Origin: Clostridia bacterium
GTDB lineage: Bacteria; Bacillota; Clostridia; Lachnospirales; JAOARL01
Assembly (NCBI GenBank): GCA_025210555.1
Contig: JAOARL010000012.1
Location: 1 to 64,000, forward strand
Reading direction: 5' to 3'
DNA: 64,000 bases
Shown here: positions 11,928 to 50,927 of the stretch, in pieces
Position numbering within the stretch: the stretch's first letter is position 1
Layout: every line of letters starts with the position of its first letter
Translations under genes and position numbers: made by a program
Notes under the pieces: model-generated
The model's database searches: none
Told to the model about the DNA's origin: nothing
The model's input: only the letters and a program-made list of their open reading frames with translations

Positions 11928-14606
11928 ATGATTTCAGGAGTAAATTCAAATAATACATACGGACTTGTAATGGATGCATTTAAGATGCAAACAGAAGAAA
12001 GTAATATAAATGAGACTAATAAAGCTCAGGATGTTAAAGTAGAAAGGTTAAACAGAAAAGTTAATAAATTAGAAGATGTTACATATATAACTAAGACTTT
12101 AGAAAAATATGGTTTTGAATCTAATAAAGAAAATGTAAAGGCATTTAATAACCTTAAAAAGAATATAAGTAAAATATCAAATACTTTAACAGAAGGTGCT
12201 GTTAAAGATATTTTAGCGCAAAAAACACTTGCTGAGAATATGAGTATAGATGAACTTAATAATTTTTTAAGCAATCAGGATAAAGTTAATTCTGAAAATG
12301 TTGAGGTAAATAATGATAATGAAGATAAGAGTGACATGGAAGAATATAATGAAGTAATAGAAGCGCTTTTTAAAGCAGGACTTCCTATGACTGGTGAAAA
12401 TATGAGTAAGCTAAAAAATGTAGAAAATGTTATGGATAAAGTTAAAAGTATTAGTGATGATGCAATCGTCATTTCTATGAAAAATGAAAAGATTACACCA
12501 GAATCATTATATAAAAATTCCAATGCTAAGATAGAAGATAAGAAGTCAGAAATAAAAGATATAAATTCTGAGATTGGCAAAGTGCTAGAAAAGAATGGTA
12601 TTGAAAACACAGTTGAAAATAATAAGATAGCAAAGAAACTTTTTAATACTGATAGCGAAATAACTCCTGAAAATATAGAAAATATAAAAGTTGTAAAAGA
12701 AAACATATCAAAAGATAATACTTTGAAATTGGCAGTAGAAGATATGAAAATTGGAAAAGAATTTATAAATAAGGATTTAACTAAAATAGATCTAAGAGAT
12801 TTGAAAGAAGTTTTAGATAATGTTTCTGAAGAAATAGTGGATAAACTTGAAAAATTATCACAAAAAGTTAATCTGAAAAATATTTATTTGCTTGAAAAAG
12901 GAGTTCTGGGTAGAGGAAACGAAAAAATATTTAATAGTGATTATAAAACGGTATTAGAGCTTAAAGCTAAGCTTACATTTGAAGCTATAACAAAACTTAT
13001 AAATTCAGACATAGAGATAGCAACAAAAGATATTAAAGAAGTAATAGATATATTAAATGATTTGGAAAAGATAGAAAATGAACAGACACTTAAAAAATAT
13101 GGAGTAGAGATTAAAGAGACTAATTTAGATAAATTAACAAATTATAATAAAGAGATAAAAACTTTAAAAAATGCTTCATCGGAAGTGTTTAGAGTTATTG
13201 AAAATAAAGAAATTGAAAATACTCTAGAAGCTATAAATAAATATGAAGAGAGTTCAACTGAGAAAAGAGTAGACTTAGGAGATAAAGTAAGTAAAGTATT
13301 TCCACAAATAGAGTCATTCTTAGAAAAAAATGGAATTAAGTCAAATGAGCTCAATAAGGAAGTAGCTAAAATACTTATAAAAAATGATATGGAAATAACT
13401 AAAGATAATGTAGAAAATATAAAAAACATTAAACTTAAAATGGATTATATATCAAATAATTTTACTGTGGATGTAGCAACCAACTTCATAAAAGAGGGTA
13501 TAGAGTTTAGTTCGATGAATTTAGATAAGCTTAAAACTTATATTAAAGATTATGTGGAAGCTAATGGGCCAACTTTAAGTGATAACATAGCTAAAGAAAT
13601 ATATGAACTTGGAAAAGATGGCAAAATAAATGAACTAGAGAAAAAAGAACTAACAGAAGTTTACAAAAGTATATATAGAGTTAATAAAACAAAAGGTAAA
13701 GTAATAGGATTTATGGTTAAAAATAATATGGATTTTACTATGGAGAATTTAGTTAAGGCGTCAAATTATATATTAGATAAGACTGAAATAGATGCTTATG
13801 TAGATGAAAACTTTGGATTCTTAGAAAGAGAAAACAAAGAAATGGTGCTAGAAGATATATTAACTAATATTGATAGATATAATATTAGAGAAGTTAAGGG
13901 TAATGTAGATTTTGAAGAATTATATATGAAGAAGATGGATAAAAAGGTTGATATAGAGGAAGTTAGAAAAATAATTTCAGATATTAATGAGTTGTCAAAA
14001 GAAACTTATGATTTTATGGATAAGAATGATATAAAGTTTAGTTCTAGTAATATAAAATTAGTAGGTGAAATATTGAAAAACGCCTATGTTATTGGAGAAA
14101 ATTTAGAAAAAGTTAAAAAGTTAAAAGATGAAAAAATTGAAAAAATAGTTTCAAAAACAATAGAAAGATTAGAAAAAGGAGAAGATATAGAAGAAATTGT
14201 AAATGATATAAAAGAAAATGCCGAAATAATATTTGAAGAAACTTTTGATAATCTAGAAAAATTAGAAGGTATGCAAAAGGTTCAAAAGATATTTGAACTT
14301 AGATCGAGTATGGATAATTCTAATATGTATGAAGTGCCAATTAAAATAAATGATAAAATTACAAATCTAAATATGGTTCTTTTGAGTGAAAACGTAGATG
14401 ATAATATGAGCATAGTTATGATGCTTAAGACAGATGAATTAGGTGAAATTGGATTTTATATTGAAAAGCAGGATAAAGAAGTAGAATTAACAATATCAGG
14501 AAAAAAAGAAGGCATAGAAAATTTAAATGAAGGAATAGAAGATGCTTTTGACGCTATTAGAAAAATTGGATTAAATGTGAATAATGTTAAGTATAAGGTG
14601 ATATAA
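11928..14606 (+). CDS. Large repeat protein with FliK-like (Flg_hook) C-terminal domain
   Basis: This 892-residue hydrophilic, helix-rich protein has no signal peptide and no cysteine-rich or membrane segment. Degenerate units of about 20-26 residues recur, for example at 58-83, 147-172, 220-240, 465-508, 520-539, 596-615 and 697-716. Their pattern is close to L-x-K-N-G-I-x-x-T-x-E-N-hydrophobic. Residues 795-892 resemble the C-terminal domain of hook-length control protein FliK: LKTDELGEIGFYI (compare LxPxxLGxVxVxI), a second strand, and a final helix plus KIGLNVNNVKY. A sigma-28-type promoter upstream and flagellin plus FliS downstream support a flagellar role, most likely hook-length control and export switching. 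It resembles clostridial DUF6240-type proteins from memory only. Confidence 0.78.
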   Translation: MISGVNSNNTYGLVMDAFKMQTEESNINETNKAQDVKVERLNRKVNKLEDVTYITKTLEKYGFESNKENVKAFNNLKKNISKISNTLTEGAVKDILAQKTLAENMSIDELNNFLSNQDKVNSENVEVNNDNEDKSDMEEYNEVIEALFKAGLPMTGENMSKLKNVENVMDKVKSISDDAIVISMKNEKITPESLYKNSNAKIEDKKSEIKDINSEIGKVLEKNGIENTVENNKIAKKLFNTDSEITPENIENIKVVKENISKDNTLKLAVEDMKIGKEFINKDLTKIDLRDLKEVLDNVSEEIVDKLEKLSQKVNLKNIYLLEKGVLGRGNEKIFNSDYKTVLELKAKLTFEAITKLINSDIEIATKDIKEVIDILNDLEKIENEQTLKKYGVEIKETNLDKLTNYNKEIKTLKNASSEVFRVIENKEIENTLEAINKYEESSTEKRVDLGDKVSKVFPQIESFLEKNGIKSNELNKEVAKILIKNDMEITKDNVENIKNIKLKMDYISNNFTVDVATNFIKEGIEFSSMNLDKLKTYIKDYVEANGPTLSDNIAKEIYELGKDGKINELEKKELTEVYKSIYRVNKTKGKVIGFMVKNNMDFTMENLVKASNYILDKTEIDAYVDENFGFLERENKEMVLEDILTNIDRYNIREVKGNVDFEELYMKKMDKKVDIEEVRKIISDINELSKETYDFMDKNDIKFSSSNIKLVGEILKNAYVIGENLEKVKKLKDEKIEKIVSKTIERLEKGEDIEEIVNDIKENAEIIFEETFDNLEKLEGMQKVQKIFELRSSMDNSNMYEVPIKINDKITNLNMVLLSENVDDNMSIVMMLKTDELGEIGFYIEKQDKEVELTISGKKEGIENLNEGIEDAFDAIRKIGLNVNNVKYKVI

Positions 14607-32861: not shown

Positions 32862-33965
32862 GTGAGTTTGCTTGAGTTTGAAAATACAAATCACAATGTT
32901 GCCAATATTGTAGTTATTGGTGTTGGTGGCGGTGGAAACAACGCTGTTGATAGAATGGTAGAAAGTGGAGTTTTAGATAGTTTAAAATTTATTACAGTTA
33001 ATACTGATTCACAAGTTTTAGCGCATTCTAAGGCTAAATTTAAAATCCAAATAGGTGAGAAATTAACTAGAGGATTAGGAGCAGGTGCAAACCCAGAAAT
33101 CGGTGAAAAAGCTGCTGCAGAAAACATGGATGAAATAAGACAAGCTCTTGAGGGAGCAGATATGGTATTTGTTACTGCTGGTATGGGTGGTGGTACTGGA
33201 ACAGGTGCTGCACCAGTAATTGCTAAAGTAGCAAAAGATATGGGAATTTTAACAGTAGGAGTTGTTACAAAGCCATTTGGTTTTGAGGGACGTAAGAGAA
33301 TGAAAAATGCAGACTTAGGTATTGATGCATTAAAGAGAACTGTTGATACATTAGTTATTATTCCAAATGATAAAATATTACAAATCGTTGATAAAAGAAC
33401 AACTATGATAGAAGCTTTTGATATGGCTGATGAAGTTTTAAGACAAAGTGTTCAAGGTATTTCAGATTTAATTTCTAAGCCTGGAATTATAAATCTTGAC
33501 TTTGCTGATGTTAAAACTGTATTAGTTGACCAAGGAATTTCTCATATGGGAATTGGTAAAGCTACTGGAGAAAACAAAACAGAAAAAGCTGCTAAGATGG
33601 CTATCTCAAGTCCATTATTAGATACTACTGTAGATGGAGCTAAAGGAATTTTAGTTAATGTTACAGGATCATCTGAATTAGGAATTTTAGAGGTTAACGA
33701 AGCTATTAACTTAATAAAAGAAGCAGTAGATCCTGAAGCTGAAATTATATTCGGTACAGCTGTGAATGATGATTTAGGTGAAGAAGTTGTAGTAACTGTT
33801 GTTGCAACAGGTTTTGAAAAGAGATTAAAGAACAATGATATGGAATTCAAAACTCCAAGAACTGATTTTAAATCAAACTTCAATATTGAAGAAAAAAGAA
33901 CTACTACTGATGACGCAAATTACATCGATGTACCAGTATTCTTACAAAGAAGAAGAGAACAATAA
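32862..33965 (+). CDS. ftsZ: Cell division GTPase FtsZ
   Basis: In this 367-residue tubulin homologue, the nucleotide loop [11 protein letters not shown] lies at 20-30 and the tubulin signature GGGTGTG at 109-115. The T7 region reads [12 protein letters not shown] short variable linker and the C-terminal conserved peptide [12 protein letters not shown], which binds FtsA, SepF and ZapA-type partners, are visible. The start is GTG 32862; an ATG two bases earlier is immediately followed by TGA and cannot be used. GGAGG is well placed. ftsA is not adjacent. Codon use is smoother than neighbours, as expected for high expression. Confidence 0.98.
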
Positions 33966-33970
33966 AATAT

Positions 33971-33996
33971 AAAACTACCTTAGGGTAGTTTTTTTA
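33971..33996 (+). terminator. Terminator after ftsZ
   Basis: AAACTACC and GGTAGTTT pair around TTAG with a T run. It separates ftsZ from the next gene. Confidence 0.88.
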
Positions 33997-34034: not shown

Positions 34035-34070
34035 TTTATTACGTTTGAAAAATTGCGGAGGGATAATATT

Positions 34071-35600
34071 ATGTTTGAAGACTTAATAGAGGGCTACACA
34101 GAATATAAAGAAGATAGTAAAAAGTTTTTTTTGAATAAAATAAGGAAACTTATGGATAATTCAATTAGAAGTAAAGAGTGTCAGTATAAGAATATCGGAA
34201 TGAATAACGGTACTATTAGAAAGATACTAGAAGGTGACAGTGTTGAGTTTACTACCTTTACTAAATTTTTAGCTTACTATGGATATGAAGTTGAGTTTTT
34301 AAGTGGTGACAATAAAATTTCTTTATATGATGTTAACGATAAAGTTAAAACAATAGGAGATAAGTATTTAGAAAAAAGAGGGACATCTAGAAGACTACAT
34401 GTGAAAAAGGGCATAAACATAGATGAAATAAGAGAAGCGTTTACAAATGATATTGAAAAATATTTGTTTGCAATAACTTATAAAAATGCAGCAAAAAGAG
34501 TCTTTGGTGAATTGAATTTAGGAAGTAATACTGATTCTATGATTGAATTTATGGATAACAATGGAATAATTATTAATGCCAGTAATTATAATAGAAATGA
34601 AAGATATGATCTTAAATCTTATGATTATACTAGAATAGAAAATAATAATAGAAATAGATGTAATGCATATAAAGCTAAGATTAAGCATAGATATATCAAT
34701 GAATTAGGATATACACAAGAGGATATGGCAAATATATTAGGTGTTAATGTAGACACAGTTAATAAAATGATTAATGCTAGAGGTGGAAGTTTAGCAAATA
34801 ATGTTAAGTTGTTAAAGTTATTAGGATATACTACTAAGATTGTTAACGATAAATTTGAAACAGTATTTAATTGTAGTGATGAACTAAGTGAGATAGAAAA
34901 AAATGCAGTATTGGATGGAAAAAGTGATATATATAAGGTAGCTCAAAAGTTGGATAAAATTGAAAATCATTTAGTTATTTCAGGAGAAGAATTTTATAAA
35001 AAAAGACATACTGTTTTTGGTACTTTTGAAACAATAGTTGAGGAAGAAAAAGAAACAGCATATTCTAAAATACTAAAGTCTATAAATGGAAGAGTTGGAA
35101 GAGCAAATGGATATGTGAGTAAAAATAAGATAAAAGAGGAAGCTCATATTTCGCCAAAGGATGTCAACTATTTTTTATATGGTAGAGGTACATCAATCAG
35201 AAGAGTAAATGAAATTTTAAATGTTTTTGGAGATCAAGTTATAATGCAGAAGGATGGGTATGCAATATCTCTAGATGAAGCAGTTAGAAGTTTAGGTGAT
35301 ATTGACAATTTTGTTGATAGATCGAGCAGTAGAAAACTTTCAATCTCGTCTGAAAATATGGAAAAAGTATTAAAAGAAAATTCGGTATTTGTTTGTAATA
35401 TGCTTGCAAACCAATACCCATCAATAAATTTTCCAGTTCTATATAGAGAAGGTTTTAATCCTAGAAATTCAGAAGAATTTTTTAAAGAAGTAGAAAATGC
35501 TGGATATAAAATTACACATTATGAAGGCTTAAATAAAGATGAACATGTTAATGATAAAGTTGAGGAAATTATAACAGAAAAAGAAGAACTCTCAGTGTGA
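34071..35600 (+). CDS. Unknown protein built from repeated helix-turn-helix-like modules
   Basis: This 509-residue soluble, basic protein is not from a family I can name. At least three stretches share one plan: helices, a recognition-helix-like segment, a short turn with Gly/Arg, then L-x-x-x-G-Y plus a strand. Module A is about 18-77 (GMNNGTIRKILEG, then FLAYYGYEVEFL). Module B is about 200-258 (GYTQEDMANILGVNVDTVNK, LLGYTTKIV), close to a classic Xre/Cro HTH. Module C is about 331-392 (ISPKDVNYFLYGRGTS, NVFGDQVIM). Weaker copies lie at about 104-170 and 428-484. The start is ATG 34071, with GCGGAGGG 8 bases upstream. It sits alone between ftsZ and an aminopeptidase. A DNA- or chromosome-binding role is inferred only from the modules. 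Confidence 0.75.
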   Translation: MFEDLIEGYTEYKEDSKKFFLNKIRKLMDNSIRSKECQYKNIGMNNGTIRKILEGDSVEFTTFTKFLAYYGYEVEFLSGDNKISLYDVNDKVKTIGDKYLEKRGTSRRLHVKKGINIDEIREAFTNDIEKYLFAITYKNAAKRVFGELNLGSNTDSMIEFMDNNGIIINASNYNRNERYDLKSYDYTRIENNNRNRCNAYKAKIKHRYINELGYTQEDMANILGVNVDTVNKMINARGGSLANNVKLLKLLGYTTKIVNDKFETVFNCSDELSEIEKNAVLDGKSDIYKVAQKLDKIENHLVISGEEFYKKRHTVFGTFETIVEEEKETAYSKILKSINGRVGRANGYVSKNKIKEEAHISPKDVNYFLYGRGTSIRRVNEILNVFGDQVIMQKDGYAISLDEAVRSLGDIDNFVDRSSSRKLSISSENMEKVLKENSVFVCNMLANQYPSINFPVLYREGFNPRNSEEFFKEVENAGYKITHYEGLNKDEHVNDKVEEIITEKEELSV

Positions 35601-35612
35601 GAGTTCTTTTTT
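35584..35612. terminator. Terminator between converging genes
   Basis: AAGAACTCTC and GAGAGTTCTT pair perfectly around AGTGT with T6 to the right and A-rich sequence to the left. It ends the multi-HTH gene and probably the aminopeptidase on the other strand. Confidence 0.85.
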
Positions 35613-46427: not shown

Positions 46428-49400
46428 ATGAAAAAGTTAAGTATATTTTTAGCAGTGTTTATTATTTTTATAGTATTAGGAGGAAAGAGTTTTGCAGTTG
46501 ATTATATATATAAAAAGTCAACATCTGGTTATAGTAGTTGGAGAAACTATGACGACGGGTATAATTCAAATGGATCAGAACCTAGCAACGCGTATTATGT
46601 AGTATTAGGCTCTAGTGGATTATATGAATATAAAAGAGATGCAGATGGTGATAGAGAGTATGGTGATGATACACATCTTAATTCACAAGAACTTTATGCT
46701 TCTTGGAGAGATTGGGCAAGTGATGGGGAACGATATGCTAAAAGGGTTAGAAGAAGAGATCATATTCCTGTAACCTTTGTAGCAAATATAACAGCGCCTA
46801 ATGGTACATATCCAGATAATGGGAAACATTCAGATGGTTATTATTATGAAAAGTTAGGACTTTCAGGACTTTATGAGTGGGGAAAATATGAAGTTAAGTA
46901 TACTAACTGGACAAGAGTCTATTCGAAGACATCAAGCTATAATGATACAGATTTTTATAGAAATTTTGGAGTTAATCCTTACACTAATAGTTATGACAAT
47001 ACATCAACTGGGCATAGGATAAGCCAAACAGCGACTAGAGAAGAATATATAAGAGCCTGGTATTATGATGGAGACCGTGTAAAGAGTTTCCACTTTGTTA
47101 ACTATAGAGATCCAATAAAATATAAATTGATAGAATATTCATCAGGTGCGGATACGGATCATGTAAATGGAGAAGTCGCAGCAGATGGTTTCTTATGGGT
47201 TAGAGAAAGGCAAATATATGATGTTTCAGAAGTAAGAACAGATACAAATAAAGTTGTTACTCAAGAATATTATTATGATAAATATAATGCTGACTATTAT
47301 ACTTCAAGAGGTGGACATTCATATAGATATGATAGAGACCATGATAGCGGTATGTACGATGGAACAGAAGCAAATCTATATGAAAGTTTTGAAACTGTAA
47401 AGAGCCAGGGGAATTGGTATTTAAGAGGAACTGGATCATATGGAAAAAGAAGTGATGGATATGAAAGTAATGGAGAAAGATCAAGATATAGAAGAACTAA
47501 TTCTGAAAGACACTGGAGCGATAGAAAAGATGAGTATGTATATAGATATAGTTATGAATGGTATCACTACGATATAGATTTTACTCATGGCATGACACCA
47601 TATTATTATAAAACAAGTTTAGCACAATCAAATTTAGTTGCTATGGATGGAGATTATCCTAATAATGGAAGACATACAGATGGTTTCTGGTATGTAAAAA
47701 AAGGTATAGCAAATCAACCACCAGTTGTAACAGTTACAAATACAACTAAATATGGTAAGACAACAGATAATTTTGTAATAAGCGGAAACGTAACAGATGC
47801 TAATGGTGGCAATGTTAGTATAACAGCTACAATAAATGGAAAAGCAAAAGTAGCAAATGTTGCAAGTGGGAATGGAGCATATACGCTTACATGGACTGGA
47901 GCTGAAATAGGACTTGGAACACATACTAATGTTGTGATAACAGCTACAGATAATAAAGGTGCGACAGATACAGTGAATTTTGCCTCTAAGTTAAATGTTG
48001 ATAATACAGCACCAAATTTAGTTAGTGCAGTTCCAACAAAATACACATATAAAAATGGAAATGATTATTGGATAAAGCAAAATGAAACCTTTAAGATTAA
48101 AATAAGAGGATATGATGCACTTCCAGGAATAAGATACACATATATAAGATATCCAGGCGCTGAAGATACTAGAGCTTATCATGACTGGCAGAGCAGTAAT
48201 AATCATCTAAATGAATTTGATACAAGTACATATTTAGATATAATAGAGGCTGTTGAAACATTAGAAACAGGCGGAAATAGGGAAGTTGAATTTACTACAA
48301 AAGGACTTAAGAATATGGGGCAAAATGAAGTTCAGTATTATTTTACTGATTATGCAGGGAATGTTTTGGGATATATAAATACAGGATATAGATTAGGAGT
48401 AGATACTGTATTGCCAGCAGCAAGTGTAACAGTAACTGTAAATTCTAGTACAAGCCTAACGGTAGCGGTAACAGCAAGTGATTCAGAGTCAGGAATTAAA
48501 GATTATAGTTTTGATGGCGGAAGTACATGGCAAGTATCTAACAGTAAGACATTTAGTGGACTTACGCCTAATACTCAGTATACATATAATATAAGAGTAA
48601 GAGATAATACACTTAATGTAAGAAGTCTAAGCATAAGTCAATATACAAATGCAAATACACCTTCAGGGTTTACTGCAACAAAAGGTAATACAGCAAGAAG
48701 TAGAAAAATAGACACAGTTTGGAATGCTAATAGTAATGCTGGTGGAACAACTTATGAGCTTGAAGTAAGTGATAATGGAACTTCAGGATGGACTAATATT
48801 TACACTGGAACATCAGTTAATTACGGTCATAATGGAATTTTAAATGATACAGGTTCAGAGCCTAACCCGTCAGTTACAAAATATTACAGAGTAAGAGCTA
48901 AATCGCATAATGGAAATTATACAGGCTATACAAGTGTCATAAGTGGTGATACATTAGCAACGCCTGTAACAACAATTGAAGAGTATTCTAGTAAAGGTTT
49001 GAATACTGGTAAAACAAGACTTAGAATTAACTGGAATAGTGTTCCAGGAGCTAAAGCATATGGGCTCTACATATTTGATGGATATGCTTATAGGTTTATA
49101 AATTTAGGCAATGTATTATCATTTGATAGTGATGTATTAAGATTTTTCCCTACTAAAGCTCAAATAGCTTCTTGGGGTGGAACGGCAGACATTTTCAAAA
49201 GAGATGGAAGTGGAGATTTTGTAGATTCTTCATGGAATGACCTCTATGTAAAGGCTAATGGTGGAGAAGTTTACAATACATACTCATATCATGCATGGAT
49301 TCATTTAATTTCAATAGATGATGAGGGAACTGTTTCAAGTCATACATGGCATGGTGCTAATTATATAGATCCAGCAGGAATCTTAGATAATGATCCGGCA

Positions 49401-50927
49401 AATGAAGGTACAGTTAACTTGATATCTAAAGATACTAAAAGCATAATAGTATCAGCAAGTGCTACAGATAAATATATGACAGAAAATAATACGGGATCAG
49501 GAGTAAAGGACTATAAATTCTTAAATGTAGAAAAATCAATAGAGAGTTCTTATACTCAAGAGCATGAGTTTGGAGATTTATTGTCTAATAAAAGATATAA
49601 CATAAAAGTTAAGGCAAGAGATAATAACTTAAATGAAAATGAATATAGTAGTGCTTATGCATTTGTAACAATGCCAGAAAAGCCTGAAAATATAAGTATA
49701 TATTCTATAATAGAAGATGATATGTATATAAGGGTAACACCAAGTTCTAAAAATGAGACAGTACCAGAACTTAAGGTTATAGCACAAAATGTGGATGTTT
49801 TATCTAATAAGATAGAAAGTACTTATACAGATGAAGAAATAATAAAACTTGAAGGATTTACACCAGGAGCTAATTACAAGGTTACTTATAAGATGAGAAA
49901 CTTAGATCTTGAAGAGACAGAGGAAGTTCTTATAGATGAAGTATTATTTATTAAGAAAGATGCACCAACTAGTATAGATGAATTTGAAGTGAATTATGGG
50001 AACTTAAAAACAACACAAGATGAAGTTGATGCAAAGCTTGTAGTAACAGACAATATTATTTCAAAAAATGACTTAAGAGTTAAGTTTATAATAAATGGAA
50101 ATGGATATGGATATGACTTCGATGAAGGAAAGTGGAAGTCAGATTACATAGGGAAATATTCTAAATATTATGGTGGAATACCGCTAGAAAAAGATGGAGA
50201 AAATAAGATAGAGGTAAATGTCTATGATGGAGTAGGAAATGTTTCAAAAGAGATAAGATATATAAGTAAAGAAAAAAATGGTGGAGATACAGTAATAATA
50301 GATAATGGTAATAATTCAGGAGATGAATCTTCAGGAGATAATACAGATAAAAACATAGGTGGAACTATAAACGAAGGAATAGTAACAGCTGAAGGATATA
50401 TTCTAGTAAAAGAAAGAAATGTAAAACTAGAATTAGATGTTGAAAATGTTACTGAAATATCATATTCATCAAATGGAGTAAGATGGTCACCATGGGAAAA
50501 GGTAACAGGAAATAAAGTTGTTAAGTATGTAACACTTGATAATGAACCATCAGAACTTAAGACAGTATATGTTAAGTCTAAAAATGAGTTTGGAGAAGGA
50601 AAGAAGTTTAAGGAAATATTATATAAGTTAGATAGAGAAGGACCAAAAGTAAAGGTAAGTGCAGCTAACAATATAAATATAGCCCAAAATGGAGAGATAA
50701 ACTTAAGACTTGAGATGTTAGATAATGTAACAAAGAACATAAGATATGTAGTTGAGATAAGTAAAGATGGAGAGAATACAAGAGTAATAAAAGGAGATAG
50801 CGCAGGAAATGAAAGTGTAATTCAGAAGGTAGTAGGACTAAATGATGGGTTCTATAACATAACATTAACAGCGTATGATCAACTAGGTAATGTAGGTAAG
50901 AATAAGTTAATAATACTTAGTAAATAA
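46428..50927 (+). CDS. Large secreted Tyr-rich and Ig/fibronectin-III repeat protein
   Basis: In this 1499-residue protein, residues 1-23 are a signal peptide ending SFA. Residues 24-430 are very rich in Tyr, Ser, Asp and Arg. They contain repeated short modules of the form YP(D/N)NG(K/R)HxDG(Y/F)(Y/W)Y, clearest near 125 and 410, with weaker relatives near 45 and 260. About 430-530 is an Ig-like domain (VTVTNTTKYGKTTDNFVISGNVTD). From 530 on come several Fn3/Big-type domains, for example TPNTQYTYNIRVRDNTLNV and KYYRVRAKSHNGNYTGYTS. The last domains read YNITLTAYDQLGNVGKN. No LPxTG, S-layer or choline-binding anchor is seen, so retention on the wall is unexplained. I infer adhesion, matrix or carbohydrate binding from domain types only. 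The ribosome site is AAGGGGGAT. Confidence 0.85.
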   Translation: MKKLSIFLAVFIIFIVLGGKSFAVDYIYKKSTSGYSSWRNYDDGYNSNGSEPSNAYYVVLGSSGLYEYKRDADGDREYGDDTHLNSQELYASWRDWASDGERYAKRVRRRDHIPVTFVANITAPNGTYPDNGKHSDGYYYEKLGLSGLYEWGKYEVKYTNWTRVYSKTSSYNDTDFYRNFGVNPYTNSYDNTSTGHRISQTATREEYIRAWYYDGDRVKSFHFVNYRDPIKYKLIEYSSGADTDHVNGEVAADGFLWVRERQIYDVSEVRTDTNKVVTQEYYYDKYNADYYTSRGGHSYRYDRDHDSGMYDGTEANLYESFETVKSQGNWYLRGTGSYGKRSDGYESNGERSRYRRTNSERHWSDRKDEYVYRYSYEWYHYDIDFTHGMTPYYYKTSLAQSNLVAMDGDYPNNGRHTDGFWYVKKGIANQPPVVTVTNTTKYGKTTDNFVISGNVTDANGGNVSITATINGKAKVANVASGNGAYTLTWTGAEIGLGTHTNVVITATDNKGATDTVNFASKLNVDNTAPNLVSAVPTKYTYKNGNDYWIKQNETFKIKIRGYDALPGIRYTYIRYPGAEDTRAYHDWQSSNNHLNEFDTSTYLDIIEAVETLETGGNREVEFTTKGLKNMGQNEVQYYFTDYAGNVLGYINTGYRLGVDTVLPAASVTVTVNSSTSLTVAVTASDSESGIKDYSFDGGSTWQVSNSKTFSGLTPNTQYTYNIRVRDNTLNVRSLSISQYTNANTPSGFTATKGNTARSRKIDTVWNANSNAGGTTYELEVSDNGTSGWTNIYTGTSVNYGHNGILNDTGSEPNPSVTKYYRVRAKSHNGNYTGYTSVISGDTLATPVTTIEEYSSKGLNTGKTRLRINWNSVPGAKAYGLYIFDGYAYRFINLGNVLSFDSDVLRFFPTKAQIASWGGTADIFKRDGSGDFVDSSWNDLYVKANGGEVYNTYSYHAWIHLISIDDEGTVSSHTWHGANYIDPAGILDNDPANEGTVNLISKDTKSIIVSASATDKYMTENNTGSGVKDYKFLNVEKSIESSYTQEHEFGDLLSNKRYNIKVKARDNNLNENEYSSAYAFVTMPEKPENISIYSIIEDDMYIRVTPSSKNETVPELKVIAQNVDVLSNKIESTYTDEEIIKLEGFTPGANYKVTYKMRNLDLEETEEVLIDEVLFIKKDAPTSIDEFEVNYGNLKTTQDEVDAKLVVTDNIISKNDLRVKFIINGNGYGYDFDEGKWKSDYIGKYSKYYGGIPLEKDGENKIEVNVYDGVGNVSKEIRYISKEKNGGDTVIIDNGNNSGDESSGDNTDKNIGGTINEGIVTAEGYILVKERNVKLELDVENVTEISYSSNGVRWSPWEKVTGNKVVKYVTLDNEPSELKTVYVKSKNEFGEGKKFKEILYKLDREGPKVKVSAANNINIAQNGEINLRLEMLDNVTKNIRYVVEISKDGENTRVIKGDSAGNESVIQKVVGLNDGFYNITLTAYDQLGNVGKNKLIILSK

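Follow-up and report, generated by a model that had tools for sequence, protein, structure and literature searches.

The 509-amino-acid (aa) open reading frame (ORF) that begins with an ATG at position 34071 and runs to 35600 on the plus strand of the window (the 64,000 nucleotides of contig JAOARL010000012.1 analysed here) appears, on balance, to encode a DNA-binding protein confined to its lineage, which most likely acts as a transcription regulator. As judged from its sequence, a single chain would combine one certain Xre-like HTH module with probably two others that have diverged. The features of the locus are as follows.

33971–33992, plus strand: intrinsic terminator separating ftsZ from the ORF (9-bp stem and T run).
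34057–34062, plus strand: Shine-Dalgarno-like GGAGGG, 8 nt 5' of the ATG (read from the sequence).
34071–35600, plus strand: 509-aa coding sequence of an ORFan (open frame beginning at the ATG, codon usage, single copy).
34122–34328, plus strand: module A, probable Xre-like HTH, residues 18–86 (A–B similarity, profile alignment in the Xre register, basic charge).
34380–34580, plus strand: weak module W1, unsupported, residues 104–170 (dissimilar to A, B and C; one-column profile alignment).
34656–34856, plus strand: module B, Cro/C1-type HTH, residues 196–262 (Pfam HTH_3, hhalign).
34857–35048, plus strand: acidic B–C linker, residues 263–326 (net charge -7; domain search found none).
35052–35276, plus strand: module C, possible Xre-like HTH with a beta hairpin after it, residues 328–402 (AF2 of C with A).
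35352–35522, plus strand: weak module W2, unsupported, residues 428–484 (inconsistent pairwise scores; one-column profile alignment).
35584–35608, no strand assigned: terminator-like hairpin across the ORF stop codon (11-bp stem, placed on the minus strand by the tool).

The ORF looks real, with native codon usage, a good ribosome-binding site and terminators on both sides. It lies directly downstream of ftsZ (32862–33965), as had been proposed, and is present as a single copy in its own 1.56-Mb genome. Codon usage is within the range of 33 neighbouring genes and falls mid-range, so that the ORF is neither spurious nor, by that measure, recently foreign. Terminator-like sites are frequent in the region (3 versus 0.2 expected), and the hairpin at 35584–35608, which also has a T run 3' on the plus strand, separates the ORF from its other neighbour, a convergent M18-type aminopeptidase gene named from the sequence by eye. 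Due to the terminator that follows ftsZ, co-transcription of the ORF with ftsZ is improbable. An imperfect 18-nt direct repeat (15/18 matching) occurs at 34037 and 34067, 30 nt apart, with the second copy (to 34084) overlapping the ORF start codon. An operator is a possible function of this repeat, which was rejected as an operator signal because 3% of shuffles reach the same level and it does not recur as a motif in the window; no DNA target of the 509-aa protein was found.

Module B almost certainly adopts the HTH fold. Residues 208–254 score 27.4 bits against Pfam HTH_3 (PF01381), above the curated cut-off of 23, which bears out the original prediction that the second module is a standard Xre/Cro HTH. 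With 19 Xre domains taken from this genome and from relatives, hhalign returned P 4.8e-5, and none of 500 shuffles reached the score of module B with an HMM built from 25 Xre domains. Within the 509-aa protein, HMM libraries recognise module B alone; for modules A and C, no HTH model in Pfam, PHROGs or NCBIfam rises above noise, and their scores with the 25-domain HMM are matched by 8% and 14% of shuffles, respectively.

Module A probably has the same fold. The best non-self match within the whole protein pairs residues 42–78 of module A with residues 223–259 of module B in the same register, and compared with 633 tiles of real neighbouring proteins this match has p 0.000–0.016 in local alignments over three matrices and p 0.009–0.021 in semiglobal alignments. 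As several module pairs were tested, the A–B similarity on its own is suggestive, and a blind self-comparison of the entire 509-aa protein against shuffles fell below significance (p 0.14–0.30). Module A by itself aligns over 42 columns with the Xre profile, a span equalled by one of 321 single tiles, with a score that is ordinary. PHROG 25386 was considered as a lead for module A and set aside; the match is weak (E 0.03), and since the family was found neither in 148 genomes nor in the controls, it has no consequence.

For module C an HTH fold is somewhat less likely than for module A, and still the better guess. Its direct similarity to A and B has p mostly about 0.05–0.4 against the 633 real-protein tiles; the alignment of A with C has 22% identity, with ISL and a GD after the strand common to both. 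A two-row profile of A and C aligned with the Xre profile over 41–42 columns, covering helices 2–4 in the expected register, with a score equalled by 2.3% of 300 random tile pairs and a score and span together equalled by 0.3%, the span criterion having been picked after the result was seen. When A was the sole other row and B was excluded, the best of five AF2 models of module C has four helices and a hairpin (H-H-H-H-E-E-H; pLDDT 75, pTM 0.66), and the remaining four have pLDDT 43–48. A Foldseek search with this model returned no significant match (none below E 0.7), with Cro/C1-type proteins frequent among the non-significant viral matches and 434 Cro, prophage Cro and HigA2 among those from the PDB. 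In all three modules, helix 4 starts 14 residues after the start of helix 3 in a single-sequence, full-length AF2 model of very low confidence, the mean pLDDT of which (36) makes it unusable for superposition. Collectively, the profile and the predicted fold favour, without proof, an Xre-like plan for module C.

The protein had been described as a chain of three to five tandem HTH-like modules. Three are plausible, with B certain and A and C moderately supported, and five are not: the weaker copies proposed at residues 104–170 and 428–484 have no consistent similarity and no profile match, and it is very unlikely that either W1 or W2 is an HTH fold. W2 yields a few isolated low p-values against the real-protein tiles, which shift with the matrix, and its predicted helix spacing does not fit. 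The distribution of charge agrees with this division, as A (+3), B (+6) and C (+5) are basic while W1, W2, the B–C linker and the tail range from 0 to -7. The presence of more than one Xre-like module in the chain is thus moderately supported.

With the full protein and the single modules as queries, and generic HTH similarity aside, homologs were not found in 96 genomes of relatives, 392 of the order and 391 of the class (overlapping sets; about 780 for order and class), all of the relatives searched lying outside the ORF's own family, or in the 12 genomes behind named contigs. There were likewise none in GTDB contigs, IMG/VR or phages; the contig scans used exact 8-residue words and so detect close relatives only. 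Among the named contigs, the sources of the nearest FtsW sequences (46–49% identity) include Candidatus Fimicola, Anaerotignum, Lachnospiraceae and Candidatus Epulonipiscium. Plasmid records contained one non-significant HTH match and no homolog, and PADLOC detected no defence family. Two further matches were rejected. A match in one genome (G108) to residues 96–190 has E 2e-4 per genome, with 392 genomes searched and one internal stop, and was ascribed to chance. The PDB 'CAP repeat' entry 8vd6 has a whole-chain E of 2.7e-8 with no single stretch that passes the threshold (the best being 31 residues of module B), and the match is thus attributed to repeated generic HTH similarity.

The nearest ftsZ loci of relatives offer an explanation for the position of the ORF. 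In 16 of the 29 loci read by eye (L039–L067), ftsZ is followed by a SpoIIGA-like gene, which NCBIfam models confirmed, along with sigE and sigG, at one of these 16; at the rest, other genes occupy the slot or the contig stretch ends. Between 33966 and 37000 of the window, the spoIIGA-sigE-sigG block common after ftsZ in relatives is absent. The ORF's own genome (99.6% completeness) has no SigE above the cut-off (best, 65 versus 348.6 bits), and the lineage has probably lost sporulation. With sigE absent and sporulation genes in the same slot in relatives, the ORF probably sits where a sporulation operon was lost. By tblastn, the window genes that lie beyond the ORF have no match in the stretches 3' of ftsZ in relatives, and this, with the missing SigE, leads us to read the locus as a rearranged scar. 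The closeness of the ORF to ftsZ is therefore probably an accident of gene loss and not a functional link; its place would be what remained once the spoIIGA-sigE-sigG block had gone. In Clostridia, a gene beside ftsZ can simply occupy the site of a former sporulation operon.

Three other accounts of the protein were weighed, of which two take their cue from this location. A factor for division or chromosome position, similar to Noc, SlmA or ParB and partnering the neighbouring ftsZ, would fit the adjacency, and several DNA-binding modules would suit extended binding; there is also a weak match of residues 179–235 to the ParB/Spo0J/Noc model (TIGR00180). That match, however, reaches 15.5 bits against a cut-off of 58.45 and covers the generic HTH only, a terminator stands between the two genes, and the ORF accompanies ftsZ in none of the relatives searched, so that such a factor is highly improbable. 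A connection with chromosome position and division, as suggested at first, consequently did not hold up, in that the slot, where read in relatives, is most often taken by spoIIGA and the conservation of context chosen beforehand as the check revealed no synteny, with a homolog in none of the genomes searched; nothing in the analysis points to a role in division. Descent from sigE or sigG, as a heavily diverged remnant of the sigma factors that hold the slot in relatives, would account for the location, and sigma factors too carry several HTH-like regions per chain, with Sigma70_r4_2 weakly matching module B (E 0.28 and 0.026). Module B nevertheless scores 27.4 bits with HTH_3 versus 11.3 with Sigma70_r4_2, the ORF matches no NCBIfam sigma model and the search for SigE in the same genome matched loci other than the ORF; this account, already disfavoured, is hardly credible.

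Rather unlikely, and the most serious of the three, is a protein that binds DNA through module B alone, the remainder being helical sequence unrelated to it; one example would be a regulator once carried by a phage or plasmid, whose additional domains have drifted too far to be recognised. Such a protein would be expected from the recognition of B alone by the libraries, the lack of clear direct similarity of C to A or B and the non-significant blind self-repeat, but it leaves aside the A–B similarity and the register that A and C jointly share with the Xre profile. An origin from a phage or plasmid is additionally at odds with the native codon usage and with the window genes read by inspection, among which there is no integrase, transposase or phage gene.

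The preferred reading, a regulator with two or three Xre-like modules, places the protein near several known systems. Like the Xre/Cro-C1 regulators (HTH_3, PF01381), it has a module B above the gathering score and, in low-confidence models, helix order and spacing that agree in A and C, whereas those regulators combine one HTH with a sensor or dimerisation domain and the 509-aa ORF product has its two or three modules set apart from one another, with a beta hairpin predicted to follow helix 4 of module C. It resembles HipB/HigA antitoxins in having an HTH with L-x-x-x-G-Y and a predicted strand after it, and differs from them in its several modules and in the lack of a toxin gene beside the ORF; among NCBIfam models the ORF scores highest with HigA (TIGR02607), at 16.9 bits, short of the cut-off of 47.7. 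The resemblance to ParB/Spo0J/Noc is confined to weak similarity in the HTH region. These comparisons draw on no literature on this gene order or on tandem Xre proteins.

Under the preferred reading, an Xre-like domain that was duplicated or recruited may have given rise to A and C. Palindromes are read by canonical Cro/C1 proteins as dimers; a single chain with two or three modules could instead recognise a composite operator that is not palindromic, chiefly through B. A strand follows the HTH in HipB-like antitoxins, and by analogy the strands after helix 4 would aid the packing of the modules. If the three modules are real, an Xre-type protein joins in one chain what its relatives accomplish by dimerising, and a gene without known relatives becomes a small test case for the origin of multi-module DNA readers. 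A far-reaching extension, in which a three-module Xre chain confined to one lineage would read long composite sites chromosome-wide and replace a regulatory layer (division or nucleoid control) lost with the sporulation genes, is a very long shot.

Elsewhere in the window, an 892-aa protein (11928–14606) encoded between recR and a flagellin gene has recurring 'EKNGI...EITxENIxxIK' stretches and is possibly a repeat-containing, flagellum-associated protein. A 1499-aa protein (46428–50927) starts like a signal peptide; its N-terminal part is unusual in being rich in tyrosine and aspartate, and fibronectin-like stretches come after it.
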